Source of the DNA: a virus | IMG/VR virus record: IMGVR_UViG_3300043395_001970 | Location: 17,810 to 81,809 of that record | DNA: 64,000 bases | Reading direction: 5' to 3' (one strand) | Shown: piece by piece, positions 7,157-64,000 of the stretch | Layout: every line of letters begins with the position of its first letter | Numbering within the stretch: the first letter of the stretch is position 1 | Position numbers and translations under genes: made by a program | Notes under the pieces: generated by a model | Database searches by the model: none | What the model was told of the DNA's origin: nothing | What the model saw: the letters and a program-made list of their open reading frames with translations, nothing else

Positions 7157-7171
7157 AATTTAATTGGTTTA

Positions 7172-7203
7172 CAAATATACAACAATTTAGTGATTACACC
7201 AAA
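7172..7203 (-). promoter_or_regulatory. Bacteroidota-type promoter for the helicase gene
   Basis: TTTG (7200-7203), a 20-base spacer and TATATTTG (7172-7179) on the minus strand match the Bacteroidota consensus fully. It lies in the 47-bp gap after the exonuclease stop. Predicted start of transcription is about 9 nt before the helicase ATG. Confidence 0.82.
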
Positions 7204-11727: not shown

Positions 11728-11756
11728 CCTCTTTTTTCCCTTTTTCTTTTATTATC

Positions 11757-11765
11757 TATAAATAT
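11757..11765 (-). promoter_or_regulatory. late-type ATATTTATA element for the lysis unit
   Basis: ATATTTATA on the minus strand, 29 nt before the ATG at 11727, in the gap after the giant polyvalent gene. No TTTG lies 20 nt upstream. Confidence 0.55.
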
Positions 11766-11798
11766 GAAAATTCGGATGAAAGGATATTTTCAGTTATT

Positions 11799-44009: not shown

Positions 44010-47000
44010 TTAACTAAGATTTTTTCCTACTACAAATCCATAATATGTTGTACCACCATTGAATGTAAAGAATGTTAATACATCAGTTCCAGTAGATGTT
44101 AATACAGGTGCTACTCCACCAACCCAATCAACGGAAACAGGCCATGTGATAACATATGCTCCAGCATTTATTGTTGTAATTGTAAATCCAAATGCGTTAG
44201 AAGCAGGAGGGTTACTGAAAGTTATTGTTGCAGAACCATTAAATTGTCTTCTAAAATTGTTTGCTGTTGATAAATCAAATGTTGCACTTCCCCCTGTACC
44301 TAAATCTGAATATGTTTCTCTAAATGTTGTTGCAGATACAAATGTACTTGCTGCTACCGATGTTGTTACTATCACATTACCAGTAACACTCAATGTATTT
44401 CCATCAAAAGTTAAATTATTTTCAGCTCTTACATTTGGAGATGAACCTTCTAATGTTAATACACCATTATCTAAAGTACCACTTATTGATGCAAATGCAG
44501 AAGTACCATTACTACCACTTATACCAGAACTACCTGTGGTTCCCGATGTAACCCCCAATGCTGACGTTCCAGATGTACCGCTTACACCACCACTACCAGA
44601 AGTTCCTGATGTTATGCCAGGTGTTGATGTACCTGATGAACCAGATGTGCCGCTGAATCCATCCGTACCAGATGTACCAGATGAGAATCCAGGTGCTGAT
44701 GTTCCAGAAGTACCTGACGTACCAGCATCACCCTGCGTACCTTGTGCTCCGGAAGTTCCAGACGAGCCATTAGTTCCAAAGAATGTACCATTTAATCCCG
44801 AAGAACCAGAAGAACCCGTTGTGCCAGAAGTTCCACTTGAACCTGCTGTTCCTGTTGAGCCAGATGTTCCTGATGAGCCATCGGTTCCTGTTGTGCCAGA
44901 AGTTCCATTAGTTCCAAAGAATGTACCATTTAAACCAGAGCTTCCAGAAGTGCCGCTTGTACCATCAGTACCACTTAATCCTGAAGAGCCGCTTGTACCA
45001 TCCGTTCCGCTAGTGCCAGAAGTTCCATTAGTTCCAAAGAATGTACCATTCAGTCCCGAAGAGCCGCTTGTACCAGTTGTACCCGATGTTCCATTTTGGC
45101 CATCAAGTCCGGATGTACCTGCCGTACCATTAGTTCCAGATGAGCCGCTTGTACCACTACTTCCAAAGAATGTACCATTTAATCCTGAAGAACCAGATGA
45201 ACCGCTACTTCCTCCCGTACCATCAGTACCATCTACACCACTTGTGCCATTTTGTCCGCTTGAACCAGATGAACCGGAACTTCCTGATGAGCCGAAGAAT
45301 GTACCATTTAATCCCGAAGACCCAGACGAACCAGAAGAACCAGATGAACCTGATGTTCCATCTACACCACTTGTGCCACCCGTACCAGAACTGCCTGAAC
45401 TTCCAGATGAACCAAAATAAGTTCCATCCAAACCAGATGTTCCACCACTTCCGCTTGTGCCATCAGTACCGGATACTCCACTTGAGCCGCTTGTACCATC
45501 TGAACCAGAGCTTCCGCTTGAGCCAGACGAACCACTACTTCCAAAGAATGTACCATTTAAACCTGATGTACCTCCACTACCAGATGTACCATCCGTGCCA
45601 GAGCTACCAGAGCTTCCTGCGCTACCTGTTGAGCCAGACGAACCACTACTTCCAGAAGAACCACTACTTCCAAAGAATGTACCGTTTAATCCCGAAGAAC
45701 CAGAACTACCTGATGATCCTGATGAGCCAGATGTTCCACCACTTCCACTACTACCATCTGTGCCACTACTACCATTTGTGCCGCTACTTCCGCTTGTGCC
45801 GCTTGTACCTTCTGAACCTGTTGTACCAGAAGAACCCGTAGTACCACTTGTGCCATTTGTGCCGCTTGATCCTGAAGAACCACTACTACCGCTTGAGCCA
45901 TCTATTCCGCTTGAGCCAGCCGTTCCACTACTACCACTTGAGCCAGTTGTACCAGATGTGCCATCAGTTCCCGTAGACCCAGATGAACCACTACTACCAT
46001 CAGTGCCGCTTGTACCATCCACTCCGCTTGTGCCAGATGAACCTGAAGTTCCTGTTGTACCGCTTGTGCCACTTGAGCCTGCTGAACCAGTTGAGCCAGC
46101 TGAACCACTACTTCCATCAGTACCGCTTGAGCCAGAACTTCCTGATGTGCCAGAACTTCCTGACGTGCCGGTTGTACCGCTTGAGCCACTTGAACCTGCT
46201 GAACCAGATGAGCCTGCTGAACCACTACTTCCAGATGATCCCGAAGAGCCATCCGAACCTGATGTTCCAGAACTTCCCGATGTGCCGCTTGAACCACTAC
46301 TACCGCTTGTGCCAGATGTGCCAGAAGTTCCTGATGTACCATCAACTCCACTTGAGCCAGCCGTTCCACTACTACCGCTAGTTCCCGATGAGCCAGTTGT
46401 ACCGCTAGAACCTGTTGAACCACTTGAGCCGCTTGTTCCAGAACTTCCTGATGTGCCACTTGTGCCGCTTGAACCAGAAGTTCCTGAGGTGCCTGATGAG
46501 CCAGTCGTACCACTAGAACCAGATGAGCCACTACTTCCTGAAGTACCATCTTCACCACTTGTGCCGCTTGAACCACTTGTGCCAGAAGTTCCTGCAGAGC
46601 CAGTTGTTCCCGATGAACCACTACTACCGCTTGTGCCAGATGTGCCAGAAGTTCCTGATGTACCACCTGAGCCGCTTGTACCTGATGTACCTGCTTCTCC
46701 ACTACTACCGCTTGTGCCAGAAGTTCCCGATGTACCATCCGAGCCAGATGTGCCAGACGTACCTCCGGTTCCTGTTGAGCCAGATGTGCCAGACGTTCCC
46801 GAAGTACCTCCCGTACCTGCCGTTGCCGATGTACCGGATGTTCCAGACGAGCCAGACGTTCCCGATGAGCCACCTGTACCAGTAGAGCCAGAGGTTCCCG
46901 ATGTGCCGCTTGTTCCTCCACTACCAGAAGTACCACCACTACCTGATGTTGCTGATGTTCCACTTGAGCCAGACGAACCAGCCGTACCAGATGTGCCAGA

Positions 47001-50000
47001 AGTTCCTGATGTACCGCTAGTGCCAGATGAGCCGCTTGTACCTCCACTTCCACTTGAGCCAGAAGTTCCCGAAGAACCCGTTGTTCCTGATGAGCCGCTT
47101 GAGCCAGATGAGCCTGATGTTCCGCTTGTGCCAGAAGTTCCCGATGTGCCAGAAGTTCCCGATGTGCCGCTTGAGCCAGTTGTTCCGCTTGAGCCGGATG
47201 AACCGCTTGAGCCGCTTGTGCCAGACGTTCCGCTAGTTCCACTACTTCCCGAAGAGCCACTTGAACCTGTTGTGCCAGAAGTTCCGCTGCTTCCAGATGA
47301 ACCACTACTACCACTTGAGCCGCTTGAGCCAGAACTTCCCGATGAACCGCTTGTGCCAGAAGAACCAGCAGTTCCACTACTACCACTTGAGCCGCTTGAA
47401 CCAGAAGTTCCTGATGTACCGCTTGAGCCAGAAGAACCATCTTGTCCGGATGTGCCACTTGAACCACTACTTCCAGATGAACCTGAGCTACCAGATGTTC
47501 CTGATGAGCCGCTTGAACCATCTTGTCCAGATGTACCACCTGTACCAGAAGAACCTACCGCTGCTGCTACGTTTCTATATGCTAATCTTTTTGTTATCGG
47601 GTCCCAAATTACCACCTCATTTGAAGAACCAGATGGTAAACTTTGGAATGCTATACTACTACTGAAAAATACACTTCCACTCACGCCCAAACTTCCACTA
47701 ATTGTAAGTGATGCGTTTATTGTCTGGTTTGTGTTAATGTTTAAGAATGATGATGTATCGGATGACGGAGTATTTAATGCAAATAATGCGTAAGATGCAG
47801 TTCTTGCAAAACTTATACTATCCATTCCCAATGGACCATCTACACCAGTTGATAAAATATAAGATGCTGTTTGTGATGATTGTGCATTTCCACCATTTAT
47901 TGTTACCAATACACCATCAGAACCAGATTGTACTACATCAACACCACTACCACTAAAGTTAATTTTAGCAACCTGTGAACGTACTAATGAACTTGTTTGA
48001 TAAATGTACAAATCAGTTCCACCACCCTGTCCAGCATTTAATGCGTAAGATGCAGTTAATGCGTAAGAAGAACTTACTGCACTAAACACAGCCATTGAAG
48101 ATGTTTGATTATTTCTTACATATTCATTTGCATTTGCCAATGATGCTGATAAAGCTGAAAGTGATGCGGAATCAAATCCTACAACAGCATCTGCTATATC
48201 AGCTCTTATTGCATGTGATGCTGAAAGAACAGTTCCAAATACTCTATTACCTTCAATCGTACCACTAATTAATGAACCACCACTACCAATTACAACATGT
48301 CCAGAAGTTAATCCAGCAAATTTAATTTGTATTGTATTTTCATCAATTGAAATAATTTGACCAGGAATAATTTGGTCTTCAGAACCTGTAGCGTATACTT
48401 GTACCATTGGATATAAAATTTCCAAATTATGTACAATTGTTAAGTCACTTACATTACTAAATGCTACAGTTTCAGTTAATGATGTTTCAGGTTGTGGGAT
48501 GAAATATCCTTGTGTATCGTTATATCTTAATATATTGTATTCCGCAGATGCAGTTGCTCCTACACCTTGGAAGTTATATGTACCTAAGAATGAACCAGTA
48601 AATAAAGGTGAGAATATAGTTGAACTACCTGTAATTACATTTGCTCTTAACTTACCATCAACATATGAATCACCCCAAACAAATGAAGATGTATTAACTA
48701 CAAATCCTTTATCAGGTGAAATTGATGCTGTTACACTACCACTTTTTAATATAAACGTTTCAAATGATAAGTTAGCAATGTTAATATTTGTTAATCCACT
48801 ACCATCACCATAATATACTGAACCAGAGGTTGCTATTATGTTTCCACCTGTTACAAAAAGAGAACCCGTAACACTTAGGTTACCAGATACAAATGTTCTT
48901 GTTCCAATTTGTAATCCTTTATTTGGAGAAATTACAGCCTGAACGGAACCTGATTGGATTCTATCAATTTTAAGGTCGTCTAACGCTTCAGGTGGGATGT
49001 TAAATAATCCACTACCATCACCATCATAACGAGCTGCGGTAATAGGAACATTTACACTTAATTTATTTGGGTCAATGATAGCAACACCAGAACCAGAATT
49101 AATCTTAAATAACTCTAAGTTTTGAATAGCTTCAGGTGGGATATTAAATAATCCACCACCATCTCCAATATACAATGATGCAGTTAATGCACCACTAATA
49201 GCCATAGATGCTGTAATCTCTGCTTTGAATGAACCAGAAGATGGCGCTGTTATTACTTGGAATCTATCCCCTGTTGCTACCGATGCAGTTGCACTACCAC
49301 TAGCAATCAAAGGAGATGCTGCCGCAACTACATTTGTTAATTGAGAACCATCTCCAACAAACGCAAATGCTTTAACACTTCCACTCACATCCACCGAACC
49401 AGTAATTCTAGTTCCAATTTGAGAACCTGTTGCTGATGTTGTTACTACAAAATTATTACCGCTTGCTACCGATGCTGTTGCTGAACCACTAGCGATAAAT
49501 GGTGCTGCTGCCGCTTGTACGTTAGTAATGTAAGAACCATCACCTACAAAGAATTGTGCTTTTACACTTCCACTTACATCAATAGAACCAGTAAATCGTG
49601 CACCATATTGAACATTCAATCCACTTCCAGTAGCTCCTGTTGTTACAATAAATGTATCACCACTTTGAACAGATGCTGTTGCACTACCACTAGCAATTAA
49701 TGGAGCTGCTGCCGCTTGTACGTTAGTAATATATCTACCATCACCATAAAGGAATTCAGTTGCTCTTATACTTCCACTAACTTCAATAGAACCAGTGAAT
49801 TGTGAACCGACTTGTGATTGTGTGAATGGAGTAACAACTTTAAAACCTTCATCAGGATTTACTGATGCTGTTACTGAACCAGATTTGATTTCAGTTGATA
49901 TTAACGCATCTTCGGTTAATGCTGATTTTGGAATACGTCTTAAATAAGTACCTTCAGCGTATATAAATGAACCAGAATCAATAAATAAACCACCACTTAC

Positions 50001-53000
50001 ATCTGAAACGAATAAACTTCCACTTACTGAAATTGAACCTGTAAAGTGTGAAGCGATTGATGCTGTAAATGCTCCGGCTTCACCTAATGATGAAGTAAAT
50101 GGCGTTGTTACAACAAATCCATCAACAGGAGAAACTGATGCTGTTACTGAACCAGATTTGATTTCAAACGATATTAATGCATCTTCAGTTAATGCTGATT
50201 TAGGAATATTTCTTAAATATCTACCTTCACCAAAGAAATTAGAAGATGATTCAAGCATTAATGCACCGCTTGTAGCGTACATATAGATACTACCAGTTAC
50301 TTGCAAACTACCGGTCAATTGAGAACCGCTTGCTACTGATTCTACTTTAAATCCATAATTAGGAGCTACTGAAGCTGTTACACTTCCACTTGCTATACGG
50401 AATACTTCTTCTGAAAGTGCTGAACGAGGTATATCAAATAATCCTCTACCACTACCACTATACATTGAAGCAGTTAATGTACCTTCTATTTTAGTTGCAC
50501 CAATAAATTTAATTTCAGCAGGTAATACAATTGAATCAACGATATTAAATGTACCAGCCATTGCTGAGTGGAATTGGCAATTATAATAAAGAGTATTAGG
50601 TGAACCAGAAGGTGGAGTAAATGTTATTGTTCCAACCGCTGCACCATTATTATTTACACCCGTATTATATGCATTACCTGTACCTGTTGAGTTTACACTC
50701 TTAATATAAAATGGATGACCAGATGCATTTACGTTAAATGTATGGGTTACCCCTCTTACTAAAGTTATTGTTGGATTTACTCCTTGTACCGAGCCACTAA
50801 ATATATATGCATTACTTCCATCAGCAGTTACATTATAAACAGGAAATAGAGATGATGTTAATACTTCTCTTGCCGATGATGAAACTATGAAGCTACCACT
50901 AATTGTAGAATATGTATTAACTACAAATCCTTTATCAGGTGCTATTGAAGCAGTTGCTGAACCGCTGAATATTTTTGTAGAATCAATTGCTAAATTAGCT
51001 AATGAAATATTTGTTAATCCACTGCCATCACCATAATAAACAGAACCACTTTCTACATAAAGACTTCCACTTATTCTTACACTACCTGTGAAGAATGAGC
51101 CACTTGCTGCAGATTTAACTACAAATCCAAAATTAGGTGATACCGATGCGGTTACCGAACCCGATTTAATTTCAGTTGATATTAATGCATCTTCACTTAA
51201 TGCATTTCTAGGAATATTTCTAAGATATGTACCTTCTCCAAAATATGCAGATGATGAATCCAATATTAAAGAACCAGATGTTGTAGTAACTCTTAAACTT
51301 CCGGTAATTGCAACACTACCAGTAATTCTAGAACCACTCAATGCTGAATCTACAATAAATCCTCTATCAGGTAATGCTGAAGCAGTTACACTTCCACTTG
51401 CTATTCTAAATAATTCCTGAGATAATGCTGAGAATGGAATATCTGTCAATCCTGCACCACTACCACTAAATACTGATGCAGATACTCCCATTCTAAATCT
51501 AGTACTTCCGCTAACATTTAAACTTCCACTAAATGTAGAACCGCTTGCTACTGAATTTACTACAAATCCAAAATTAGGTGAAACTGATGCAGTAACGCTA
51601 CCACTAAATATTTTTGATGTATCTAAATCAGAAATTGCTGCAGCAGGTATATCAAATAAATTTCTACCACTACCAGAATAAGATGAACCCGATGCTAAGA
51701 ATACACCACCACCGCTTATAAATAAACTTCCACTAAATCTAGAACCACTAGCTATAGATTCTACCTTAAATCCAAAATTAGGTGCTACAGATGCTGTAAC
51801 ACTACCACTAGCTATTTGTGATATATCAAATGATAATGCCGAGCGAGGTATATCATAAAGGAATCTACCACTACCACTAAAGGATGAGCCAGTTTCTAAA
51901 AATATACCACCACCTGTTATGAATAACGAACCCGTAAATCTTGAACCAAATTGTGCAGATTCTACTTTAAATCCAACACTATCAGGATTTACCGATGCAG
52001 TAACACTACCACTTGCTATTCTATTAGATACTTCAGCAGGTACATTTCTTAGTCCACTACCATCTCCAACATAAGAACCAGAAAAAGAGCCACTAAATGC
52101 AAATGCTCTAACACTACCACTTACATCAATACTACCAGTAAATTGTGAACCAAATGCCGAACCTGTTCTATCAGTTTCAACTCTAAATCCAAAATCAGGA
52201 GTGGTTGATGCAGTAATTGAACCAGATCCAATCCTAAATGCATCTCCGGTGAAAGCTGAACGAGGAATATTAAATAATCCACTACCATCCCCAACAAATG
52301 CCGAACCACTAAATGATCCTGTAAATTCTCTTGCTCTTACAACATCTCTTACTGTTAAACTACCAGTAATTCCTGTATTACCTATAAATAAAATTCTATC
52401 TTGTAGTAAGAAATTATTTACAATATTGATTTGGCCATTCATTGCTGAATGGAATCCGCATATATAATATAATGTGTCAGGAGAACCGGATGGTGGTGTA
52501 AAATATACCGAACCACTTTGAGTACCATTATTAACAACACCAGTTGTATATTGAGAACCAATTCCAGTTACAAGTGCGGTTTTAATATAAAATGGATGCC
52601 CAGTTGCATTTACTTCAAATCTATATGTTACACCTCTAACTAAAGTAAGTGTTGGATTTTGTCCTGTAGCTGCTCCATCAAATACATATGCAGATGAACC
52701 ATTGGCGGTTACATAAAAATAATTTGGTATTGATGAGGTTGCTAATGGTTCTGCTGATGATGATACTACAAAACTACCACTAATTGTTGAACGAGTATTT
52801 ACAGTAAATCCATAATCAGGTGTAATTGATGCAGTATATGAACCACTAAAGATTTTTGATGTATCTAAATCAGATATAGCAGTTTTAGGAATATCAAAAA
52901 GAAATCTACCACTACCAGAATAAGAACCAGAATATAATTCAACTCTTGCTCCACTTATAAATAAAGAACCAGTAAACTGAGAACCACTTGCTGAAGATAT

Positions 53001-54599
53001 TACTTGGAATCCTCTATCAATTGATACAGATGCTGTTACTGAACCGGTTTGTATTCTTGTTGCCGCAACAACTTCTTCTGCCAATGCCGATAATGGAATA
53101 TTAAATAATCCTTGTCCACTACCAGAATAAAATGAACCATTTGCCAATTGAACAATCCCACCAGTTACAAAAAGAGAACCGGTAAATTTAGAGCCACTAA
53201 AAGGAGATGTAACTACAAAACCTCTATCAGGAGAAACAGATGCTGTTACACTACCACTTTTAATTTCAGTAGATATTAATGCATCTTCCGTAAGTGCAGT
53301 TCTTGGAATATTTCTTAAATAAGTACCTTCACCATAATAAGCGGATGAAGAACCTAATATCAAAGAACCAGAAGTTGCTATAATTTCTAAACTACCAGTA
53401 ATAGAAACACTACCAGTAAATTCAGAACCACTATTAGGTGAAGTTACAACAAATCCAAAATTAGGAGATACTGAAGCTGTAACACTACCACTTACAATAA
53501 ACGAAGATAATAATGCATCTTCAGTTAATGCTGAACGAGGTATATTTCTTAGATATCTACCTTCACCATAATATGATGAACCAGATGCTAATTGTATAGA
53601 ACCACTATGAGGATTAACAAATAAAGAACCAGTAATATCAACACTACCTGTAATTCTAGAGCCACTTATTTGAGATTCTACTTTAAATCCAAATGTTGGT
53701 GAAACTGATGCGGTTACACTTCCACTTGTAATTTTAAATGGTTGAAATGAAAGTGCTGATTCTGGAATATCGAATAATCCTCTACCACTACCACTAAAGA
53801 ATCCACTCCCAGATGGTATTGTAATATTTCCACTTACAAATAAAGAACCCGTAAATGTAGAACCGCTTGCAATTGAAAGTACTTTAAACCCTTCTTCAGG
53901 TGAAACAGAAGCTGTTACGGAACCTGTTGATAATTTTGTTGCTTGCGGTAAATTAAATAAGTTTCTACCATCTCCAAAGAAAGAGCCTGTAAATGAACCA
54001 GTAAATGATGAACCTGTTGCTTGTGATGTTACTAATGATGAACTAATTAATACCGAACCAGTAAATTCTTGCTTATCATCATAAGCATCACCAAATTTAT
54101 TTGAACCAGATGAATAAATTACAGAAGATGAAATAAATGATACTAAAAGTTGTTGTGCATATATTGAATCATCAACATATAAATCACCCTGAACTCTAGT
54201 ATTTGTATTAACAACTAAATCACCTTCGATAAAAGATGCAGTTGATGAACCACTTGCTATTAACTTTGCACCAGGTAAATTAAATAATTGAGAACCATCT
54301 CCGATAAAAGAACCAGAGAAAGAACCTGTGAAACTACCACTTAATGATGTAGCGCTACCGGTAAAAGAACCTGTAAATTGTCCAGTTACTCTATCTAAAT
54401 CTAAACTACGAACAAATCCTCTATTACCCTGGTCATCGGAAACAACAATTGCAGGAGAGCCAGAAAGGGAAGCTGAAAAGTTTGGTACACCCAAATTAGG
54501 TTCAACCTGAGACAAATCAATAAACTGATACCTGTCCGGCGTTACATTTTTTGGGGATACTACCCTTACCCTACCTGTTAAAAGATTACTAATTGCCAT
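44010..54599 (-). CDS. giant tail fibre (3529 aa) with two cupredoxin-like domains
   Basis: A 3529-residue fibre. Residues 1 to about 2000 repeat a unit of about 55-65 residues: a GSVTASVSPNFGFKVES-type strand pair, SGSxFTGSLFVSG, and YGEGRYLRNIPRSALTEDAL. Two separate domains of about 105 residues interrupt it (near 625-725 and 1253-1353), each with GHPFYI and then C-x2-H-x2-M (CGFHSAM, CQFHSAM), a complete type 1 copper site of amicyanin type. Residues about 2351-3370 are collagen-like Gly-Ser/Thr triplets with interspersed GLNGTFFG. A globular C-terminal beta domain ends it. It probably forms a very long host-contact fibre. It has two late-type elements upstream. Confidence 0.88.
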   Translation of the reverse strand: MAISNLLTGRVRVVSPKNVTPDRYQFIDLSQVEPNLGVPNFSASLSGSPAIVVSDDQGNRGFVRSLDLDRVTGQFTGSFTGSATSLSGSFTGSFSGSFIGDGSQLFNLPGAKLIASGSSTASFIEGDLVVNTNTRVQGDLYVDDSIYAQQLLVSFISSSVIYSSGSNKFGDAYDDKQEFTGSVLISSSLVTSQATGSSFTGSFTGSFFGDGRNLFNLPQATKLSTGSVTASVSPEEGFKVLSIASGSTFTGSLFVSGNITIPSGSGFFSGSGRGLFDIPESALSFQPFKITSGSVTASVSPTFGFKVESQISGSRITGSVDITGSLFVNPHSGSIQLASGSSYYGEGRYLRNIPRSALTEDALLSSFIVSGSVTASVSPNFGFVVTSPNSGSEFTGSVSITGSLEIIATSGSLILGSSSAYYGEGTYLRNIPRTALTEDALISTEIKSGSVTASVSPDRGFVVTSPFSGSKFTGSLFVTGGIVQLANGSFYSGSGQGLFNIPLSALAEEVVAATRIQTGSVTASVSIDRGFQVISSASGSQFTGSLFISGARVELYSGSYSGSGRFLFDIPKTAISDLDTSKIFSGSYTASITPDYGFTVNTRSTISGSFVVSSSAEPLATSSIPNYFYVTANGSSAYVFDGAATGQNPTLTLVRGVTYRFEVNATGHPFYIKTALVTGIGSQYTTGVVNNGTQSGSVYFTPPSGSPDTLYYICGFHSAMNGQINIVNNFLLQDRILFIGNTGITGSLTVRDVVRAREFTGSFSGSAFVGDGSGLFNIPRSAFTGDAFRIGSGSITASTTPDFGFRVETDRTGSAFGSQFTGSIDVSGSVRAFAFSGSFSGSYVGDGSGLRNVPAEVSNRIASGSVTASVNPDSVGFKVESAQFGSRFTGSLFITGGGIFLETGSSFSGSGRFLYDIPRSALSFDISQIASGSVTASVAPNFGFKVESIASGSRFSGSLFISGGGVFLASGSSYSGSGRNLFDIPAAAISDLDTSKIFSGSVTASVSPNFGFVVNSVASGSTFSGSLNVSGSTRFRMGVSASVFSGSGAGLTDIPFSALSQELFRIASGSVTASALPDRGFIVDSALSGSRITGSVAITGSLRVTTTSGSLILDSSSAYFGEGTYLRNIPRNALSEDALISTEIKSGSVTASVSPNFGFVVKSAASGSFFTGSVRISGSLYVESGSVYYGDGSGLTNISLANLAIDSTKIFSGSATASIAPDKGFVVNTYSTISGSFIVSSSAREVLTSSLFPVYNVTADGSNAYIFSGSVQGVNPTITLVRGVTHTFNVNASGHPFYIKSVNSTGTGNAYNTGVNNNGAAVGTITFTPPSGSPNTLYYNCQFHSAMAGTFNIVDSIVLPAEIKFIGATKIEGTLTASMYSGSGRGLFDIPRSALSEEVFRIASGSVTASVAPNYGFKVESVASGSQLTGSLQVTGSIYMYATSGALMLESSSNFFGEGRYLRNIPKSALTEDALISFEIKSGSVTASVSPVDGFVVTTPFTSSLGEAGAFTASIASHFTGSISVSGSLFVSDVSGGLFIDSGSFIYAEGTYLRRIPKSALTEDALISTEIKSGSVTASVNPDEGFKVVTPFTQSQVGSQFTGSIEVSGSIRATEFLYGDGRYITNVQAAAAPLIASGSATASVQSGDTFIVTTGATGSGLNVQYGARFTGSIDVSGSVKAQFFVGDGSYITNVQAAAAPFIASGSATASVASGNNFVVTTSATGSQIGTRITGSVDVSGSVKAFAFVGDGSQLTNVVAAASPLIASGSATASVATGDRFQVITAPSSGSFKAEITASMAISGALTASLYIGDGGGLFNIPPEAIQNLELFKINSGSGVAIIDPNKLSVNVPITAARYDGDGSGLFNIPPEALDDLKIDRIQSGSVQAVISPNKGLQIGTRTFVSGNLSVTGSLFVTGGNIIATSGSVYYGDGSGLTNINIANLSFETFILKSGSVTASISPDKGFVVNTSSFVWGDSYVDGKLRANVITGSSTIFSPLFTGSFLGTYNFQGVGATASAEYNILRYNDTQGYFIPQPETSLTETVAFSNVSDLTIVHNLEILYPMVQVYATGSEDQIIPGQIISIDENTIQIKFAGLTSGHVVIGSGGSLISGTIEGNRVFGTVLSASHAIRADIADAVVGFDSASLSALSASLANANEYVRNNQTSSMAVFSAVSSSYALTASYALNAGQGGGTDLYIYQTSSLVRSQVAKINFSGSGVDVVQSGSDGVLVTINGGNAQSSQTASYILSTGVDGPLGMDSISFARTASYALFALNTPSSDTSSFLNINTNQTINASLTISGSLGVSGSVFFSSSIAFQSLPSGSSNEVVIWDPITKRLAYRNVAAAVGSSGTGGTSGQDGSSGSSGTSGSSGSSGSSGSSGTSGQDGSSGSSGTSGTSGSSGSSGSSGTAGSSGTSGSSGSSGSSGSSGSSGSSGSSGTSGTTGSSGSSGSSGTSGTSGTSGSSGSSGSSGTTGSSGTSGTSGTSGTSGTSGTSGSSGSSGSSGTTGSSGTSGSSGSGGTSGSSGTSGTSGTSGTSGTAGSSGSSGTSATSGSGGTSGSGGTSGTSGTSGSTGTGGSSGTSGSSGTSGTSATAGTGGTSGTSGTSGSTGTGGTSGTSGSDGTSGTSGTSGSSGEAGTSGTSGSGGTSGTSGTSGTSGSSGSSGTTGSAGTSGTSGSSGTSGEDGTSGSSGSSGSSGTTGSSGTSGTSGSSGTSGTSGSSGTSGSSGSTGSSGTTGSSGTSGSSGTAGSSGVDGTSGTSGTSGTSGSSGSSGTSGSSGTSGSDGSSGSSGSSGSAGSSGSAGSSGSSGTTGTSGSSGTSGSSGSSGTDGSSGSAGSTGSAGSSGTSGTTGTSGSSGTSGVDGTSGTDGSSGSSGSTGTDGTSGTTGSSGSSGTAGSSGIDGSSGSSGSSGSSGTNGTSGTTGSSGTTGSEGTSGTSGSSGTNGSSGTDGSSGSGGTSGSSGSSGSSGSSGLNGTFFGSSGSSGSSGSSGSTGSAGSSGSSGTDGTSGSGGTSGLNGTFFGSSGSSGSSGSSGSDGTSGSSGVSGTDGTSGSGGTSGLDGTYFGSSGSSGSSGTGGTSGVDGTSGSSGSSGSSGSSGLNGTFFGSSGSSGSSGSSGQNGTSGVDGTDGTGGSSGSSGSSGLNGTFFGSSGTSGSSGTNGTAGTSGLDGQNGTSGTTGTSGSSGLNGTFFGTNGTSGTSGTDGTSGSSGLSGTDGTSGTSGSSGLNGTFFGTNGTSGTTGTDGSSGTSGSTGTAGSSGTSGTTGSSGSSGLNGTFFGTNGSSGTSGAQGTQGDAGTSGTSGTSAPGFSSGTSGTDGFSGTSGSSGTSTPGITSGTSGSGGVSGTSGTSALGVTSGTTGSSGISGSNGTSAFASISGTLDNGVLTLEGSSPNVRAENNLTFDGNTLSVTGNVIVTTSVAASTFVSATTFRETYSDLGTGGSATFDLSTANNFRRQFNGSATITFSNPPASNAFGFTITTINAGAYVITWPVSVDWVGGVAPVLTSTGTDVLTFFTFNGGTTYYGFVVGKNLS
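44490..47545 (-). repeat. about 1000-residue collagen-like (Gly-X-Y) repeat
   Basis: More than 3 kb of nine-base units encode Gly-Ser-Ser, Gly-Thr-Ser, Gly-Ser-Thr and Gly-Val/Gln/Leu-Asp triplets, with GLNGTFFG inserts recurring at roughly even spacing toward the C-terminus. GC content is visibly higher than around it, and the opposite strand reads as a Pro/Val/Glu-rich frame, a by-product of the repeat. Confidence 0.93.
50535..50855 (-). other. cupredoxin-like domain 2 in the 3529-residue fibre
   Basis: This part codes for FPVYNVTADGSNAYIFSG, then TLVRGVTHTFNVNASGHPFY, and ends with LYYNCQFHSAMAGTFNIV. The His of GHPFY and the Cys, His and Met of CQFHSAM are the four ligands of a type 1 copper site. 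Confidence 0.75.
52420..52735 (-). other. cupredoxin-like domain 1 in the 3529-residue fibre
   Basis: This part codes for YFYVTANGSSAYVFDGA, then TLVRGVTYRFEVNATGHPFY, and ends with LYYICGFHSAMNGQINIV. Spacing C-x2-H-x2-M equals that of amicyanin. It is a clear paralogue of domain 2. Confidence 0.75.
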
Positions 54600-55627: not shown

Positions 55628-58600
55628 TTAAATTTGTAGTGCCAATGAGAACGGAGTTACCAATGAGAATAGAGATTTACTAAATGTTCTACCCACAAGA
55701 GTACCAGTTGCCTGATTAATACTTAAACCAGTACCAATTCTAAAGTCACCATCTTGGTTACCAGAGGTAAAGAATATTCTACCACCACCCAATTCGGTAA
55801 TCTCATAAATTGGATTTGCTACACCACTACCACCCTGATTTGGAGGAAGTGCTTTAAACGTAACACCACTACCATTATAAGAGTAGTCAATACCAGTTGC
55901 CACAATCAATGAACCAAATGATTCTAATGGAGCACCTGCTGCGATAAATTCTGCTCTTGTTCTTAAATACCTATTAGTTTCAAGAGTTTCAAGCTTTTGT
56001 TGATTAATTACAGCTGCTGCACTTCCAAATTGACCGTTATAGTAGGATGATGCTGCTGCTATTGCTCTTTCATTTCCACCATATAATAAATCAGTTGCAC
56101 AAGCATCAACAATCAATCCAGTATCACGAGAACAACTAGCCTCATTATAGACTAAATATGGGAATGCTCCATTTGTATATCCGATTGCTCTTTGTTTCAG
56201 TTCATCTTTTGCTGCTACCAATCTAGCTGCTGCTTGTCTTCTCTTAGTTGTTGGTGCTAGATAAGTTAATTGTGTATTTGTTACAACTTTTTCAGCTATA
56301 CCTCTTGCGAAGTTAATTCCATCTACAGTTTGTTTCTTTTGACCAACCTCACCATTATCAGTATATGATTCTGCAATTGCTACTGAAGGTATTCTATAAT
56401 AATAAGAACCTGCTTCGATACTTCTTTCGTTACCACCATATACTAAGTCAGTTCTAATAGCATCTATAATAAATCCTAAGTCACGAGAACAACTTACTTC
56501 ATTATATTTTAATGTACTCCAAGATGAAGATAAGAAAGTAATTGTTTCTTTTTGTATTAATGATTTATTAAATGTTAATAATTGAGCTGTTCTCATTAAT
56601 GAACCAGAAACTACCCAAGCATCTGCGTAAGTTGGATTTGTTACTGATTTAGATGCTAATCTACCAGCATATCTTACACCTGTAATTGTTGGGTCTAATT
56701 GATTTTGCTCAGATGGTACACCTGCGTTAGTTGCTCTTGATGGGAATAGATAATAATATGTTCCAGCTATAACACTTCTTTCTTGTCCACCATAAAGAAG
56801 GTCAGTTGTTGCTGCATCAATCAAATACTTAACATCTCTACTACAACTTGCTTCGTTATATTTAACACCACTCCAAGAAGATGAAACATATGCAATAGCT
56901 TCAGCCGCAATAAAGTTTTTATTTTCTCTTAATAAGTAAACCGAAGAAGATACTGCTAAAGATGCTGTATTAAACTGAACATTTTGTATTACCTTTTGTG
57001 CAATTCTACTTGCGTAGTTTATACCATCGTTGGTTTGCTTTAGTTGTCCATCACCATCACCATCACCTAATAATGTTGCCTTCGATGGATATTTAAAGTA
57101 GAATTCACCACTCATTACGGTTCTTTCATTACCACCATATAATAAATCGGTTGCTACACCATCAATTATATATCCAACATCACGTCTACATTTAACTTTA
57201 TCATAGTTAAAATTAGCCCAACTTGATGTTAAGTAATGCATTGTTTCTTCTTGTATAAACTCTCTATTATTTCTCAACAATGTTACTGAAGCAGATACTA
57301 CTTGCGATGCAGTAACAAATACTTTATTTTGAATGATATTCTTAGCTATTCCACCTGCATAATCAATTGAGTTTACAGTTGGTTCTAATTGAGAACCCGT
57401 TGTTGCTAATGATGGATATAAGAAATAGAATAAACCTGCGTTTGCACTTCTTTCGTTACCTCCATATAAAATGTCAGTTGAAACAGCATCTATAATATGC
57501 CCCACATCACGTCTACACAAAGATTCAGAATATTGCAATCCTACCCAAGAAGATGAAATATATGCTATTGTTTCTTCTTGTATAAATTTCTTATTAGCTC
57601 TCATTAATTGGTGAGATGCCGATGCTTCCATAGAAGCCGTTACATAAACAGTGTTAAGTATTAATTTTTGTGCCAAACGGCTTGCGTACTTAATACCATC
57701 TAAAGTTTGGTTTAATTGTGTACCTTGAGCCTGTGATGGGTAATCATAATAGAATCTACCATTCACAACCGATGCAGAATTACTATTGAACACTAAATCT
57801 TCTGCTGCTCCGCTTATAATCAATCCTACATCTCTTTTACACTTATTCTCGTCATAAGATGCCGTACTCCAAGAAGAACTTAGGTATGCTATTGTTTCAT
57901 TTTGTATAAATGCAATATTATTTTTTAATATACCATAAGCAATCCACTTATTATCATCACTTACTGCTGTTGTGTAAGATGATGTTGGTAAAGTTAATGA
58001 AGCACTTATTACCGAAGAACCAGTACCCTTTGCTATTATGTTTGCTACAATTGAAATAGATGCCGAAATAGCACTTACTTCATTAGATGTTGCAGATGAA
58101 CCAGAAATATACTGAGGTGTATTTGTAACCTTAATATTGTTTGTAGTATTAAGTATTATTTGTGGTTCAGGTACTAAATTACTATTAATTATTTGTTCCG
58201 TTAATCTTCTAGCATAATCAATTGCAGTTGTTGTTTCAGCTACCTGCTCTGATTCGGTTGCCAATGAAGGATATAAGTAATAGAACTCACCGGCTTTATT
58301 ACTTCTTTCATTACCACCATATAATAGGTCAGTTGCAACCGCATCTACAATATATCCAACATCACGTCTACACTTAGATTCTATGTAATCCAATTCAGGA
58401 TATTTAGCATTTACAAATGCTACAGTTTCTTCTTGGATGAATGTTTTATTCTTTTTAATTAAGTTATATGCGTACTGATTGTTTGAATTAGGTGATACAA
58501 ATGTAGAACCGCTAACGATATTCATTGCTAATCCTCTAGCATGTCTTACACCGGTTAATGTTGGTTCTAATTGTTCATCAGTTGCTTCAGATGGATAATC

Positions 58601-61600
58601 ATAATAGTATCTTCCCGCAATAATGCTTCTCTCATTACCACCATAAAGAATATCAGTTGCTACTGCATCAATTATATAACCCAAATCTCTTTCACACTTA
58701 GATTGAGAATACACAAATCCTTGCCAAGAAGAACTTAGGTATGCGATTGATTCTGATACAATAAATCCTTTGTTAGTTCTTAATGATGCCCAAGAAGAAG
58801 AAATAAATGATGATGAGAAATGTGTTAATACAGTATTTCTTACTACTTTCTCTGCCATTCCACCTGCAAACTTTAATGCAGTTATAGTTTGGTCTAATTG
58901 AGAACCAGTTGCTGCAGATGGATATTCAAAATAGAACTTACCATTCACAAATGATGCTGAATTGCCACCATATAAAAGGTCATAAGCTGCTCCGCTTATA
59001 ATTAATCCCACATCCCTACTACAACTTGCCTCATTATATACAAATGTTGACCAAGATGAACTCATAAATGCTATCGTTTCATCTACAATCATTTGTTTAT
59101 TATCTAATAATAAATTGTATGCTGCGTTTACTTTAGCGTTTGTATTTGGTGTGTTTGCAGGTGCTTCATAGATTACGGATGATGTACCATAACTTAACAT
59201 ATCAATTACATAAGAAAATGATGATGATATAAGTTTAGCTTGTAATCTATCAGCTCCACTACCACTTATAATTTGTGGAGTAGATGTTACTTTAATGCTT
59301 GCTGAAGTATTTGATATTAATGTTGGTATTACTGATTTTCCGTTTTGTACAATATTCAATACTATACCAAACAGATTACCTATTCTATTAACTTCAGAAG
59401 AGCTTCCTGTTATTGAAACCGAAGTTGCTGCAGTTGTTTTTACTGAGCCGGATGTGTTTGATACTAATGTTGGTATTGAACCTGTACCATTGTTTATTGT
59501 ATTAATTACATTTCCAAATGAGCTACTAATACTTGCTGTTTGTGTATTATACGTTCCACTTCCTAAACTTTGTGTTACGGATGAAATATGCAATAAAGTT
59601 GGTGTACTTAGTTGGAATCCATAATTGTAGTTATTTGCTAAACTATCAGGTACAGAAGCAGAACCCCAATAAATAATATCTCTTATTAATCCAAATGAAG
59701 CGGTTGTTATTCCTACTTCAATTGAACTAGCTGAAACCGAGGATGTTATTTGAGATTCATTTGATACTTTAATAGATGAACTTGCGTTTGTAATAACAGT
59801 AGGTACAACATCCAATCCACCAGCTATTATTTCAGTTACTAATGCAAACGATGAACTAACTTTGTTAATTTCAGTTGATGTTGCAGAAATAGATGATGTT
59901 ACCGGCAATATATTACCTACTCTAATATTTGAGTTTGTGTTAGAAACTAAAGTTGGTGAAGATAGTATTACATTTTGTACTATTTTTTTAGTCAAAGATT
60001 TTGCATATTCAACCCCAGCTACAGTTTCAATAACTTGGTCAACCTTAGTTGCTTTAGATGGATAACGATAATAGTAATCACCAGCAATAATACTTCTTTG
60101 GTTACCACCATACCATAAATCAGTTGCTACATTATCTACAATATATCCAACATCACGTCTACATTTCTCTCTATTGTATCTTAAATAAGGATAGAACGCA
60201 TCAATGAATTGGATAGTTTCATTTTGAATGAATTGTCTATTATTTTTCATTAATGTGTATGCTGATTTTACATAATCAGTTGGTTCTACCAATAGTACTT
60301 TAGATATTACATTTTGTGCTACACCTGCTGCAAATCCAATACCTTCTAATGTAGGTCCTTTTTGTGCAGCAGTTGTTGGAGAGATAGATGATGTTACGGT
60401 TGCTGCAGATGGGTATAAGTAATAGTATTGTCCTGCTTTAGAACTTCTCTCATTGCCACCATAAATTAAATCAGTTGCTACATTATCAACAATATATGCA
60501 ACATCTCTCTTACAAGTGTTTTCGTTGTATGAGAATCCACCAACACCACTCCAAGATGAAGATAAAAATGCAATTGTTTCTTCTTGTATAAGTTTTTTAT
60601 TCTTATTTAATAAGTTCCAGCCTGCTATTTCTGATTTTGTTGGTTTTACTAATAATTGGTTAGATGCAATCTTTTCAACTAAACCTTTTGCGTATTTTAC
60701 TCCATCTAAAGTTTGTCCTAATTGTCCAGAAGAATCACCATCACCATCTACAGTTGCTAATGAAGGATATAAGTAATAATATTCACCAGCTTCTCTACTT
60801 CTTTCGTTTCCACCATAAAGAATATCAGTTGCTACCGCATCAATTATATACCCAACATCACGTCTACACTTAGATTCGGAGTATTCAAAGAAACTCCATG
60901 CAGAATTTAAGAAACCAATAGTTTCAGTTTGTACTAATTCTCTATTATCTGCAATTAATTGGTAAGCTGTTCTTACTGAAAGTGATGCTGTTGCAAATAC
61001 TCTATTGTGTAGTATTTGCTCAGTCATATGCTTAGCATGTTTAATACCACTCAATGTAGGTCCTAATTGAGATGTAGTTGCTTGTGAAGGATATGTATAA
61101 TAAAAATCTCCAGCTTCTCTACTTCTCTCATTACCACCATAAATAATATCTGTTGCTACCGCATCTAAAATGTATCCTACATCTCTTTTACAAGTTTGTT
61201 CATTGTAAGATGCTGTACTCCAGCTAGCGGATACATATGCTATAACTTCATCAGCAATAAATCCTTTATTTTTGAATATTAATTCTTTTGCTTGAAGTTT
61301 ATTTTGAGATACCTTAGAGAATGTATATCCTCTTAATAATTTATCTGCCAAATCCCTAGCATATCCAATACCAGTTACTGTCTCCTGAATTTGAGAACCA
61401 GTTGCTGCTGATGGATATAAATAATAGTAAATACCTGCTTTAATAACTCTTTCGTTACCACCCCATTTAGTATCAGTTGCTACCGCATCAATTATATAAC
61501 CAACATCTCTTTTACAAGTTGTTTGGTCATAAGAATGCGAACTCCAAGAAGAAGATAGATAAGCTATTGTTTCTTCTTGTATAAATGTTTTATTATTTAC

Positions 61601-64000
61601 CAAAATATTATACGCTACTAATGATTGAGAAGTAGGTAATGCAAATTGAGTATTTAAAATTACTTTTTGTGCTAATTTACTTGCGTAGAATAAACCATCT
61701 AAAGTTTGATTTAATTGTGCTCCTTGCGCTTGTGATGGGTATTCGTAGTAGAATTTACCATTCACCAAAGATGCAGAGTTACTATTCCAAATAAGGTCTT
61801 CAGCTGCGCCACTAATAATTAAACCAATATCACGTCTACACTTAGTTTCATCATAAGATGCTGTACTCCAAGAAGAACTTAGGTATGCAATAGTTTCATC
61901 TTGTATGAATTGAATATTTTGTTTCAATATTCCATATGCTGCTAATACAGCTGATGATGAAACTGAATTACTATAAGATGATGTAGATAAATTAGTTATT
62001 ATAGAACCAGTACCATTTGCTATTATATTTGTTACAATTGAAATAGATGCTGATATAGCATTTACTTGCGTTGTTGTTGCAGATGATGCTGAAATATATT
62101 GTGGTGTAGATGTTACCTTAATATTGTTGTTTGTATTCACAACTAATGTTGGTAATGAACCTGTACCATTTTCTAATATATTAATTACTCTATTGAAACT
62201 TGATGAAATATTATTAGCTAATGATTTAGAAACAGCAACGGAAGAACTATATTGTGCTTCGTTTGTAATTTTTACCAAACCATCAACATTTCTAACTAAA
62301 GTTGGTAATGAACCAGTATTTGCAAAAATGTTTAATATAACATCAAAATTATTATTTGATGCACTTATAAATGTAGAAGATATTGATGCAGTTGAAACAA
62401 ATTGTGGGTAATTTGTTTTTTTAACCAATCCTCTTGCATTATTAACTAATGTTGGGATTGAACCTGTTCCATTTGCTATTATATCAATTACAGTATTAAA
62501 TCCTATTCCAGCTTTTATAGCATCAGATGATAGTGGTGTAATTGAAGATGTAATTTGATTATATATCAATTCATTTGATATAATACTATTTACAAATTCT
62601 TTAAGATATATTATACCTTCTAAAGTTTGATTTAATTGAGAACCTGTTGCTAGAGATGGGTATAAATAATAGAATCTTCCCGCCTCTACACTTCTTTCGT
62701 TACCACCCCATAATACATCCGTTGCAACATTATCTAAAATGTATCCAATATCTCTCTTACAAATTTGCTCATTATAATTACCTGTCCAAAGATTTGAATT
62801 AATTTTTGCAATTGTTTGTTCTTGTAACCAAGTTTTATTATCTAATATTAAATTGTAAGCGCTTGTTCTTGATTCAGAAGCTGTTACAAATGTGAAATTC
62901 TGAGCTATTTTTTGTGCTAATCTACCAGCATGTCTTATACCATCTAATGTTTGGCTTAATTGAGCTCCATCAGCTTGAGAAGGATATTCTAAATAAAATT
63001 TACCATTAACAAATGATGCAGATACCGAATTGAACAACAAATCTTCAGCTGCTCCACTAATGATTAATCCAACATCCCTTCTACATTTTTCTTCACTATA
63101 AGAAGCGGTTGACCAAGAAGAACTTAGATATGCTATTGTTTCGTCCTGTATAAACTTAACATTTTGTTTAATTAAGTTGTATGCATAGAATGCATTTGAT
63201 GCAGATGTAGCTGATGTATATGATGATGTTGGTAATTGCGTTATTACTGAACCGCTACCATTTCTAATTATATCCAATACAACCGCAAATGAAGATGAAA
63301 TAATAGCCGCTTCATTTAAAGTACCAATATTTGATGATGTTATGTATTGTGGTGTGGATGTAACTTTAACACTCTGAATTGTATTAAGTGTAATTGATGG
63401 TATTGAGCCCGTTCCATTTTCTACAATATCTAAAATTATATCAAAATTATTTGCTACATTTGTTTTATCAGAAGATTCAACATTTACAGATGATGTAATT
63501 TGAGAACCAGCAATTCTAGCTACTCCTTTGACAGAAGCGGATACGATTGTTGGTATTGCACCCAATCCTTTATCAACTATATTAATTACATTACCAAATG
63601 ATGATGATACAATTTGTTTATCAGAAGAAATAACATTATCTTTTACTAAGAATTGTAGTTCTGATGATTTTCTTATTCCTTCTGCATTGTTTGTAACTAA
63701 TGTTGGTGCAGTAATACTACCACTACCAATTATTTTAGCTACAATATCAAATCCATCTTCAATTGGTTTACCACCAATTGCTACCAATTCTGCCAAATCT
63801 CTAGCAAATTCAATAGCATCCACAGTTTCAGTTACTTGTGCATCAGTTGCTTGAGAAGGATATAAATAATAGAATCTACCAGCGGTAATACTTCTTTCAT
63901 TACCACCATATACTAAATCAGTAAGAACATTATCAATAATAAATCCAGTATCTCTATAACACTTATCTTCTTTATAATTTAAAGTTGGATAAGTATCATT
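55628..64000 (-). CDS. giant repeat virion protein, 5' end beyond the window
   Basis: At least 2790 residues, open to base 64000. The apparent start at 63823 is an internal GTG, because the same repeat continues upstream (CYRDTGFIIDNVLTDLVYGG). Eighteen units of about 90-110 residues share C-(R/K/S)-RD-x-G-x-I-(I/L)-D-A-x-A-T-D-x-x-Y-G-G-N-E-R-S, then AGxYYYLYPSxAT and QTLDGIxYAxxLAEKVI. They alternate with a second unit (SSSFxxVxxIxxNGTGSIPTLV). The C-terminus (GGGRIFFTSGNQDGDFRIGTG) is a separate beta domain. It resembles large virion structural proteins of marine myoviruses and may be a fibre or whisker. Each unit keeps one cysteine. Confidence 0.82.
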   Translation of the reverse strand, partial: NDTYPTLNYKEDKCYRDTGFIIDNVLTDLVYGGNERSITAGRFYYLYPSQATDAQVTETVDAIEFARDLAELVAIGGKPIEDGFDIVAKIIGSGSITAPTLVTNNAEGIRKSSELQFLVKDNVISSDKQIVSSSFGNVINIVDKGLGAIPTIVSASVKGVARIAGSQITSSVNVESSDKTNVANNFDIILDIVENGTGSIPSITLNTIQSVKVTSTPQYITSSNIGTLNEAAIISSSFAVVLDIIRNGSGSVITQLPTSSYTSATSASNAFYAYNLIKQNVKFIQDETIAYLSSSWSTASYSEEKCRRDVGLIISGAAEDLLFNSVSASFVNGKFYLEYPSQADGAQLSQTLDGIRHAGRLAQKIAQNFTFVTASESRTSAYNLILDNKTWLQEQTIAKINSNLWTGNYNEQICKRDIGYILDNVATDVLWGGNERSVEAGRFYYLYPSLATGSQLNQTLEGIIYLKEFVNSIISNELIYNQITSSITPLSSDAIKAGIGFNTVIDIIANGTGSIPTLVNNARGLVKKTNYPQFVSTASISSTFISASNNNFDVILNIFANTGSLPTLVRNVDGLVKITNEAQYSSSVAVSKSLANNISSSFNRVINILENGTGSLPTLVVNTNNNIKVTSTPQYISASSATTTQVNAISASISIVTNIIANGTGSIITNLSTSSYSNSVSSSAVLAAYGILKQNIQFIQDETIAYLSSSWSTASYDETKCRRDIGLIISGAAEDLIWNSNSASLVNGKFYYEYPSQAQGAQLNQTLDGLFYASKLAQKVILNTQFALPTSQSLVAYNILVNNKTFIQEETIAYLSSSWSSHSYDQTTCKRDVGYIIDAVATDTKWGGNERVIKAGIYYYLYPSAATGSQIQETVTGIGYARDLADKLLRGYTFSKVSQNKLQAKELIFKNKGFIADEVIAYVSASWSTASYNEQTCKRDVGYILDAVATDIIYGGNERSREAGDFYYTYPSQATTSQLGPTLSGIKHAKHMTEQILHNRVFATASLSVRTAYQLIADNRELVQTETIGFLNSAWSFFEYSESKCRRDVGYIIDAVATDILYGGNERSREAGEYYYLYPSLATVDGDGDSSGQLGQTLDGVKYAKGLVEKIASNQLLVKPTKSEIAGWNLLNKNKKLIQEETIAFLSSSWSGVGGFSYNENTCKRDVAYIVDNVATDLIYGGNERSSKAGQYYYLYPSAATVTSSISPTTAAQKGPTLEGIGFAAGVAQNVISKVLLVEPTDYVKSAYTLMKNNRQFIQNETIQFIDAFYPYLRYNREKCRRDVGYIVDNVATDLWYGGNQRSIIAGDYYYRYPSKATKVDQVIETVAGVEYAKSLTKKIVQNVILSSPTLVSNTNSNIRVGNILPVTSSISATSTEINKVSSSFALVTEIIAGGLDVVPTVITNASSSIKVSNESQITSSVSASSIEVGITTASFGLIRDIIYWGSASVPDSLANNYNYGFQLSTPTLLHISSVTQSLGSGTYNTQTASISSSFGNVINTINNGTGSIPTLVSNTSGSVKTTAATSVSITGSSSEVNRIGNLFGIVLNIVQNGKSVIPTLISNTSASIKVTSTPQIISGSGADRLQAKLISSSFSYVIDMLSYGTSSVIYEAPANTPNTNAKVNAAYNLLLDNKQMIVDETIAFMSSSWSTFVYNEASCSRDVGLIISGAAYDLLYGGNSASFVNGKFYFEYPSAATGSQLDQTITALKFAGGMAEKVVRNTVLTHFSSSFISSSWASLRTNKGFIVSESIAYLSSSWQGFVYSQSKCERDLGYIIDAVATDILYGGNERSIIAGRYYYDYPSEATDEQLEPTLTGVRHARGLAMNIVSGSTFVSPNSNNQYAYNLIKKNKTFIQEETVAFVNAKYPELDYIESKCRRDVGYIVDAVATDLLYGGNERSNKAGEFYYLYPSLATESEQVAETTTAIDYARRLTEQIINSNLVPEPQIILNTTNNIKVTNTPQYISGSSATSNEVSAISASISIVANIIAKGTGSSVISASLTLPTSSYTTAVSDDNKWIAYGILKNNIAFIQNETIAYLSSSWSTASYDENKCKRDVGLIISGAAEDLVFNSNSASVVNGRFYYDYPSQAQGTQLNQTLDGIKYASRLAQKLILNTVYVTASMEASASHQLMRANKKFIQEETIAYISSSWVGLQYSESLCRRDVGHIIDAVSTDILYGGNERSANAGLFYFLYPSLATTGSQLEPTVNSIDYAGGIAKNIIQNKVFVTASQVVSASVTLLRNNREFIQEETMHYLTSSWANFNYDKVKCRRDVGYIIDGVATDLLYGGNERTVMSGEFYFKYPSKATLLGDGDGDGQLKQTNDGINYASRIAQKVIQNVQFNTASLAVSSSVYLLRENKNFIAAEAIAYVSSSWSGVKYNEASCSRDVKYLIDAATTDLLYGGQERSVIAGTYYYLFPSRATNAGVPSEQNQLDPTITGVRYAGRLASKSVTNPTYADAWVVSGSLMRTAQLLTFNKSLIQKETITFLSSSWSTLKYNEVSCSRDLGFIIDAIRTDLVYGGNERSIEAGSYYYRIPSVAIAESYTDNGEVGQKKQTVDGINFARGIAEKVVTNTQLTYLAPTTKRRQAAARLVAAKDELKQRAIGYTNGAFPYLVYNEASCSRDTGLIVDACATDLLYGGNERAIAAASSYYNGQFGSAAAVINQQKLETLETNRYLRTRAEFIAAGAPLESFGSLIVATGIDYSYNGSGVTFKALPPNQGGSGVANPIYEITELGGGRIFFTSGNQDGDFRIGTGLSINQATGTLVGRTFSKSLFSLVTPFSLALQI

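Follow-up and report, generated by a model that had tools for sequence, protein, structure and literature searches.

The light-harvesting phycobiliproteins (phycocyanin, phycoerythrin and allophycocyanin; PF00502) hold their bilin through Cys84, Arg86 and Asp87. Their paralogues, the BBAGs (bilin biosynthesis-associated globins), lie outside photosynthesis: as reported, they are small cellular globins, some with a CXRD motif that contains the attachment cysteine, which bind bilins without lyases and are tied to a heme oxygenase and an FDBR encoded with them in one gene cluster (PMC10151467). Heme oxygenase and bilin reductase genes of phages have been on record for nearly two decades, and their purpose is still called enigmatic, most of all where the host lacks phycobilisomes (PMC11480375, PMC2984593); iron supply, phytochromes or BBAGs have been proposed as their use (PMC11480375). 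The phage hemO-pcyA/pcyX cassettes described there place heme oxygenase beside the reductase, and the part of the report drawn on here names no virion acceptor (PMC11480375). In the open-licence PMC literature, to the extent of its searchable excerpts, we found no phycobiliprotein-like virion protein or virion bilin acceptor reported.

The window analyzed here, a 64,000-nucleotide stretch of viral DNA, is the last 64 kb of the 81,809-base IMG/VR record IMGVR_UViG_3300043395_001970 (record positions 17,810–81,809). On its minus strand, an ORF remains open through 2790 aa and runs past the end of the record, so that the N-terminus of the protein is missing and its 18 copies of the longer repeat unit, A, are a minimum (Table 1). 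A search with a unit-A profile recovered 18 domains of ~108 aa, scoring 105–155 bits, and C-x-R-D occurs 18 times in this one frame, once per A unit, in agreement with the at least 18 Cys-Arg-Asp units claimed in the preliminary description. The ORF contains 19 cysteines in total, the extra one sitting in the last A unit. The same description had called the unit almost unchanged, a wording that is too strong given that the full long motif is exact in only 4 of the 18 units. It had also proposed a second, alternating unit: such a unit (b, ~50 aa) is real, but it does not alternate one-to-one with A, since the profiles for A and b yield the layout A1 b4 A2 b4 A6 b6 A3 b2 A6. A-unit type follows position, with GLIISGAAEDL units starting a block after a b array and YPxLxY units tending to end one. 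Alignment of b against A with hhalign gave 0.35%, with no detectable sign of b as a shortened A. The domain scores, together with a similar block order across many related contigs, rule out the repeat being a product of chance.

Table 1. Coordinates of the giant ORF, its repeat blocks and the neighboring ORF in the window.
Feature	Window position	Strand	Basis or remark
Giant tail-fibre ORF (putative), 2790 aa, tandem A units of predicted phycobiliprotein fold and b arrays	55628..64000	-	5' end outside record
A unit 1, CYRD, truncated by record end	63776..64000	-	motif and unit profile
b array 1: 4 b matches, last one weak	63167..63763	-	b profile
A units 2-3 (CRRD, CKRD)	62564..63205	-	motif and unit profile
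b array 2: 4 b matches, last one weak	61946..62503	-	b profile
A units 4-9, six-unit block	59966..61960	-	motif and unit profile
Modelled pair of neighboring A units	60992..61639	-	mean pLDDT 93.5, pTM 0.85, phycobiliprotein fold
b array 3: 6 b matches	59120..59998	-	b profile
A units 10-12, three-unit block	58175..59140	-	motif and unit profile
b array 4: 2 b matches, second one weak	57950..58207	-	b profile
A units 13-18, C-terminal six-unit block; unit 18 diverged, second Cys	55934..57961	-	motif and unit profile
C-terminal end, resembles end of phrog_3442 (unknown function)	55631..55933	-	PHROG match
Neighbor ORF, 310 aa	54669..55601	-	weak phrog_4527 match, 2e-5

The protein matches PHROG 4527 ('short tail fiber') at 7.5e-156 and PHROG 5342 ('tail fiber') at 7.5e-126, and the adjoining genes, which encode collagen-like fibres, a fibre-assembly-like protein, sheath and tube, form a tail-fibre gene run. 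PHROG annotation and gene position thus support its assignment as a putative virion tail-fibre protein, in line with the virion role first assumed for it. In relatives, the ORF in the place of the neighboring gene contains a single degenerate A unit that lacks Cys, Arg and Asp alike, and a comparable degenerate stretch is readable by eye in the window's own neighbor.

The preliminary description had called for a search of other phages, and the unit proved widespread. A scan of viral contigs identified 341 stretches encoding relatives, from which 64 loci were retained. Genes uncut by the locus end encode 2778–5104 aa with 13–25 A units, the first of which is preceded by ~280–770 aa without A units. 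Block order is common among these relatives (for example, b5 A3 b5 A4 b6 A6 b6 A3 b2 A6), the layouts nearest to that of the window being L016 and L019. With a unit from a Kyanoviridae phage as query, matches were found in 339 of 50,697 named phage records, all titled Synechococcus, Prochlorococcus, cyanophage or marine virus. The Kyanoviridae giant tail fibre (T4-GC 296/734, PHROG 4527), whose gene lies directly ahead of gp12, carries the same domain with C-x-R-D mostly retained. Its units are fewer and more diverged than in the fibre described here (3–9 matches per genome among ten genomes with matches), and cpeT lies nearby. A third, distant phage group (G079-G082, loci L235-L238) encodes a 2522-aa ORF with seven unit-profile matches, retains C-x-R-D in both units read and carries a bilin reductase. 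The unit profile A5 found no units in Pelagibacter phage Mosig, in P-SSM2 or in the controls T4, KVP40 and HTVC008M.

AlphaFold2, supplied with two neighboring A units and 126 aligned rows, returned a confident model with five helices per unit and a phycobiliprotein-type fold, the two-unit prediction having been suggested at the outset. The 50 PDB entries listed by VIA-align comprised phycobiliproteins, two entries of smURFP (small ultra-red fluorescent protein) and two further entries titled 'bacterial fluorescent protein' and 'near-infrared fluorescent protein of de novo backbone design', all at Z 11.1–12.5. No families beyond phycobiliproteins and bilin-type or designed fluorescent proteins were among the matches listed, where chains ranked low by Foldseek could not appear. 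smURFP, although among the closest solved folds, is an engineered single domain. Alignments mostly spanned 100–111 residues at an rmsd of 1.9–2.8 (8j98: 134 at 3.7), each of the two units matching over 100–109 residues at about 2.0–2.5, with 12–18% identity in the aligned rows. Both units align to chain residues ~32–148, leaving the N-terminal hairpin and the last helix mostly unmatched; several rows begin earlier in both model and chain (e.g., model residue 89 on chain residue 9), so the last helix of the preceding unit may stand in. The first unit runs on for 66 residues from C42 to its end, equal to the distance between positions 82 and 148 of the matched chains.

The phycobiliprotein group stands apart in this comparison, as 100 of 998 chains reached Z ≥ 8 and only 5 more fell between Z 5 and Z 8. 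VIA-align cautions that a common arrangement may take helical proteins as high as Z 13, and we therefore sought evidence in the sequences. Foldseek against the PDB gave E-values above 0.5, which on their own would not support the fold, yet assigned probabilities of up to 0.94 to phycobiliproteins. A comparison against predicted viral structures gave 12 matches at E ≤ 0.001, all to Synechococcus phages, uncultured Caudovirales or a nameless entry. A model of an A-b6-A segment (488 aa) reached a pLDDT of 65.6 and rendered b, at low confidence, mostly as one helix with an extended linker.

Searches of the window protein against Pfam and against PDB sequences returned nothing for the repeat, and the two-unit profile had no PDB match at E ≤ 10, leaving fold comparison and profile methods as the sole routes to the phycobiliprotein family. 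The preliminary description had named a match to a named and solved fibre repeat as its refutation; no such repeat appeared among the PDB sequences, and the solved structures with this fold belong to a different class of protein. We built a phycocyanin profile from 40 CpcA and 40 CpcB sequences out of cyanobacterial contigs and ran it on all six-frame ORFs of the phage loci at E ≤ 10. It matched 86 ORFs, namely all 69 giant ORFs and 17 others. The best giant ORF reached 2.5e-14 and the window 2e-8, values that sum many weak domains with short alignments insignificant one by one, while the best other ORF stood at 1.8. The giant ORFs contributed 837 domain alignments, of which 824 cover the Cys84 column, with Cys in 820 and C.RD in 811 of these 824; none of the 25 alignments in the 17 other ORFs covers this column. 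In the window, all 13 domain alignments reported place a cysteine there. With hhalign, 28 diverse units matched the phycocyanin profile at 95.4% (E 1.9e-8, 60 columns, unit Cys on Cys84), a value that fell to 0.5% and 0.3% when query or template was reversed. Among six forward pairs, the weakest (A4 against CpcB) gave 2.8%, and the highest reversed value was 6.0%.

Among 24,736 Pfam models, the sole match of an S-PM2 unit was Phycobilisome (PF00502), at 22.1 bits (cut-off 22.2) and E 1.6e-4. This family was matched by three of six units, one of them equally matched by another family, and the window unit was among the three without such a match. When whole records were searched, PF00502 appeared in 13 of 24 at E ≤ 10, a level at which three control genomes without phycobiliproteins also matched, under the cut-off. 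The cut-off was passed in 5 of the 24, all cyanophages with this repeat (S-CAM1, S-PM2, S-WAM1, P-RSM6 and Sf-FP1), four of them via summed neighboring units; it was not passed in T4, KVP40, HTVC008M, P-SSM2, Mosig or the window's record. A chance resemblance, with the motif arising on some bundle of helices of other descent, would accord with the weak single-domain profile scores and with the middling Z often seen for helical repeats, but phycobiliproteins stand apart from other helical chains in Z, the profile–profile match extends over its 60 columns only in the forward direction, and the PF00502 cut-off is passed in relatives; we consider such a coincidence extremely improbable. Unit A is almost certainly a homologue of phycobiliproteins with their fold. 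The likeness lies in the predicted fold over residues ~32–148, in a Cys followed by Arg and Asp two and three places on, and in profile similarity. The phage domains differ in being shorter, of low identity and arranged in tandem in a giant viral chain, and they are known here from sequence and a model.

We then compared the C-x-R-D triad across 802 distinct units. Among the 798 units without a gap in any of the three columns, 766 have the full triad and 27 have none of it; partial triads comprise three units with Cys and Asp but no Arg and two with Arg alone. Such a pattern, with Cys, Arg and Asp mostly kept or lost jointly, is expected of a ligand site. Units without Cys number 29, of which 28 lie in short ORFs (the gene following that of the fibre) and the remaining one in a fused copy in L024. 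In a 28-row alignment spanning the jumbo clade, the G079-G082 group and Kyanoviridae, N12, C42 and D45 are the only invariant columns, the Arg being lost in some Kyanoviridae units. There is no conserved His, the most frequent His column holding 6 of 70 rows, and a heme-binding globin was dropped as a candidate for want of a conserved proximal His.

The cysteine had initially been suggested to serve metal binding, disulfides or covalent host contact. That each unit has a single Cys, with another in only 18 of the 802, suits a dedicated role of this kind, including a covalent bond to a host receptor, but the lone Cys stands with an invariant Asp and a nearly invariant Arg in phycobiliprotein register and has no conserved His partner. 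We dropped the metal or disulfide repeat on these grounds, and the host-contact cysteine because it is in register with the bilin-attachment Cys84; taken together, these roles are very unlikely. The invariant Cys thus matters, as first proposed, and a covalent role was rightly suspected, while its likely partner is not a metal, a second Cys or the host. Judged from the sequences and the model, the A units probably carry a covalently bound bilin.

To locate bilin pathway genes, we searched 49 records of the 64 related loci and the window's own, leaving out shorter or duplicate records. Heme oxygenase (PF01126) was found in 8 of the 50 records, and these 8, but no others, have a ferredoxin-dependent bilin reductase gene (PF05996) next to it. 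Two scans intended to supply a size-matched background for this rate returned near relatives only (UvsX) and mostly short fragments (terminase). The two genes overlap when read in frame. The cassette occurs in 5 of 5 records above 185 kb, in 8 of 11 above 120 kb and in none of 39 below 96 kb. Judged by coordinates, seven of the eight have it on the strand of the fibre gene, 113–126 kb downstream of the final A unit; in G003 (270,865 bases) it lies 138 kb away on the opposite side of the units, and if this record is a circularly permuted whole genome, the arrangement is the same as in the other seven. By arithmetic, the three records above 120 kb without the cassette (G004, G006 and G043) and the shorter ones end before the expected spot. 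Reckoned from coordinates, all 8 related records that reach this spot carry the cassette.

The eight records represent about five lineages by reductase sequence, and in them cassette and fibre gene lie at least 113 kb apart, outside any shared cluster. No cassette was found in the window's own record, where the expected position falls outside. Its near relatives by UvsX, 3300042448_001702 (97%) and 3300034283_001774 (95%), both have the reductase. The best PDB match of the reductase is PcyX_EBK42635 (2.7e-18), so the cassette resembles the described hemO-pcyA/pcyX pairs in gene order and in a reductase nearest PcyX, and differs in that a candidate acceptor is present in the same genomes. Among related records, psbA was found in 0 of 12, the CpeS lyase in 0 of 18 and CpeT in 4 of 18, all from one lineage. 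A CpeT-like protein with an apparent signal peptide was seen in one unit-carrying phage lineage (L090-L093), and a GroEL-like gene shortly downstream of the cassette in L084-L087.

In the reverse direction, 49 of 53 reductase loci were searched with the unit profile A4, leaving out four tiny contigs (L106, L117, L130 and L144), and 12 of the 37 loci without a match were searched again with A5. Units were detected by A4 in 12 of the 49 and weakly by A5 in one more; among reductase records of at least 180 kb, 7 of 9 have units. The remaining 36 of these 49 uncultured records gave no detectable units, including two large ones of 200 and 251 kb. Of the 50,697 named phage records, 27 have the reductase, and 26 of these 27 belong to cyanophages. 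With A5 we tested 10 of the 27, namely Mosig and nine cyanophages (duplicate accessions are among the others), and found units in all nine cyanophages, as well as in P-HM1. P-SSM2, a cyanophage that carries bilin genes, gave none. In Sf-FP1 the reductase gene is immediately upstream of the giant gene, with CpeT close by, and in S-CAM1 CpeT lies two protein genes upstream of it. In Mosig (L327), the region from the tail fibre to the neck genes holds heme oxygenase and reductase, with a ferrochelatase and several 2OG-Fe(II) oxygenases close by.

These counts bear on a reading in which the cassette serves another purpose, such as phytochromes, heme degradation, iron release or host pigments, and accompanies the fibre through shared ancestry. 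Reductase or cassette genes do occur without units, in Mosig and in the 36 uncultured records, and uses of this type have been proposed, as noted above. Both cassette genes are, against this, found in the same 8 records at a steady distance from the fibre gene, and the reductase accompanies units in no fewer than three distant groups (jumbo clade, G079-G082 and Kyanoviridae), which makes an unrelated use improbable. A homologous fold without chromophore, with rigid spacer modules derived from phycobiliproteins or BBAGs and a triad retained because it makes a structural contact or binds a partner protein, would accord with the 339 named records with units as opposed to just 27 with reductase, and with lyases being mostly not found. 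Set against it are the joint retention or loss of the triad, a ligand-site pattern, the bilin genes in unit-carrying genomes in which psbA was not found, and the fact that Synechococcus hosts make bilins themselves; we regard a fold of this kind as rather unlikely.

The explanation that we favor, and consider likely, is a giant fibre of phycobiliprotein-type bilin-binding domains, a candidate for loading with bilin through the phage's own pathway. Computation supports it through the fold, distant homology, the Cys register, the joint retention or loss of Cys, Arg and Asp, and the cassette at a steady distance. Each A unit would fold as a small bilin-binding globin and hold one open-chain tetrapyrrole, thioether-linked to the C-x-R-D cysteine. 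The bilin would be made in the infected cell by phage enzymes from host heme, or, in cyanophages, come from host or phage enzymes, the bilins of Synechococcus hosts being one source. Attachment could be spontaneous, as reported for BBAGs, or require a lyase. In motif and predicted fold the A units are comparable to BBAGs as these are described; the phage protein differs from these cellular globins in being a putative virion protein of 13–25 domains in complete genes, with its enzymes at least 113 kb away.

In the fibre, A blocks may form stiff helical rods and b arrays flexible joints, which would give a virion with a pigmented fibre of 18–25 chromophores per chain. The use of the pigment is the least certain step of this explanation. 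Our first choice would be a cofactor that stabilizes a fibre exposed in sunlit water and absorbs light or radicals, and our second a fibre that changes with light or redox state and so tunes adsorption. Tandem bilin-site-like fibre domains and bilin genes in related phages suggest that some phages may build colored tail fibres. The wider proposal, that a large group of aquatic phages load these 18–25 sites per chain covalently with their own bilin, so that the purpose of their bilin genes is the virion itself and not photosynthesis in the host, with a fibre that reacts to light or shields from it, is one towards which we lean slightly. The finding offers a concrete candidate bilin acceptor inside the virion, in genomes carrying phage bilin genes. 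If correct, it would describe a new kind of virus particle, one with a biliprotein fibre; it would also add a new branch to phycobiliprotein history and provide imaging or energy-transfer studies with a natural chain of up to 25 bilin sites.

Several further observations were made in these genomes. In S-PM2 (L077, NC_006820), sixteen tRNAs are annotated within the giant fibre ORF at 11338-16165, whereas ARAGORN found none there and nine at 6164-8084; the annotated tRNA positions therefore look shifted. In the window, a collagen-like fibre of 3529 aa (44010-54599, minus strand), with a weak Pfam match to an At5g54830-like family, contains two cupredoxin-like stretches, one at ~52419-52667 and a second copy further on. 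They read GHPFYIK ... YYICGFHSAMNG, with a C-x2-H-x2-M spacing like that of type 1 copper sites, a copper reading made by eye. A 1993-aa ORF (11799-17780, minus strand) matches phrog_2859, of unknown function, and is weakly ParB-like. Two adjacent genes on the minus strand (1027-1827 and 2096-2869) are Mom-like DNA modification genes (phrog_1384).
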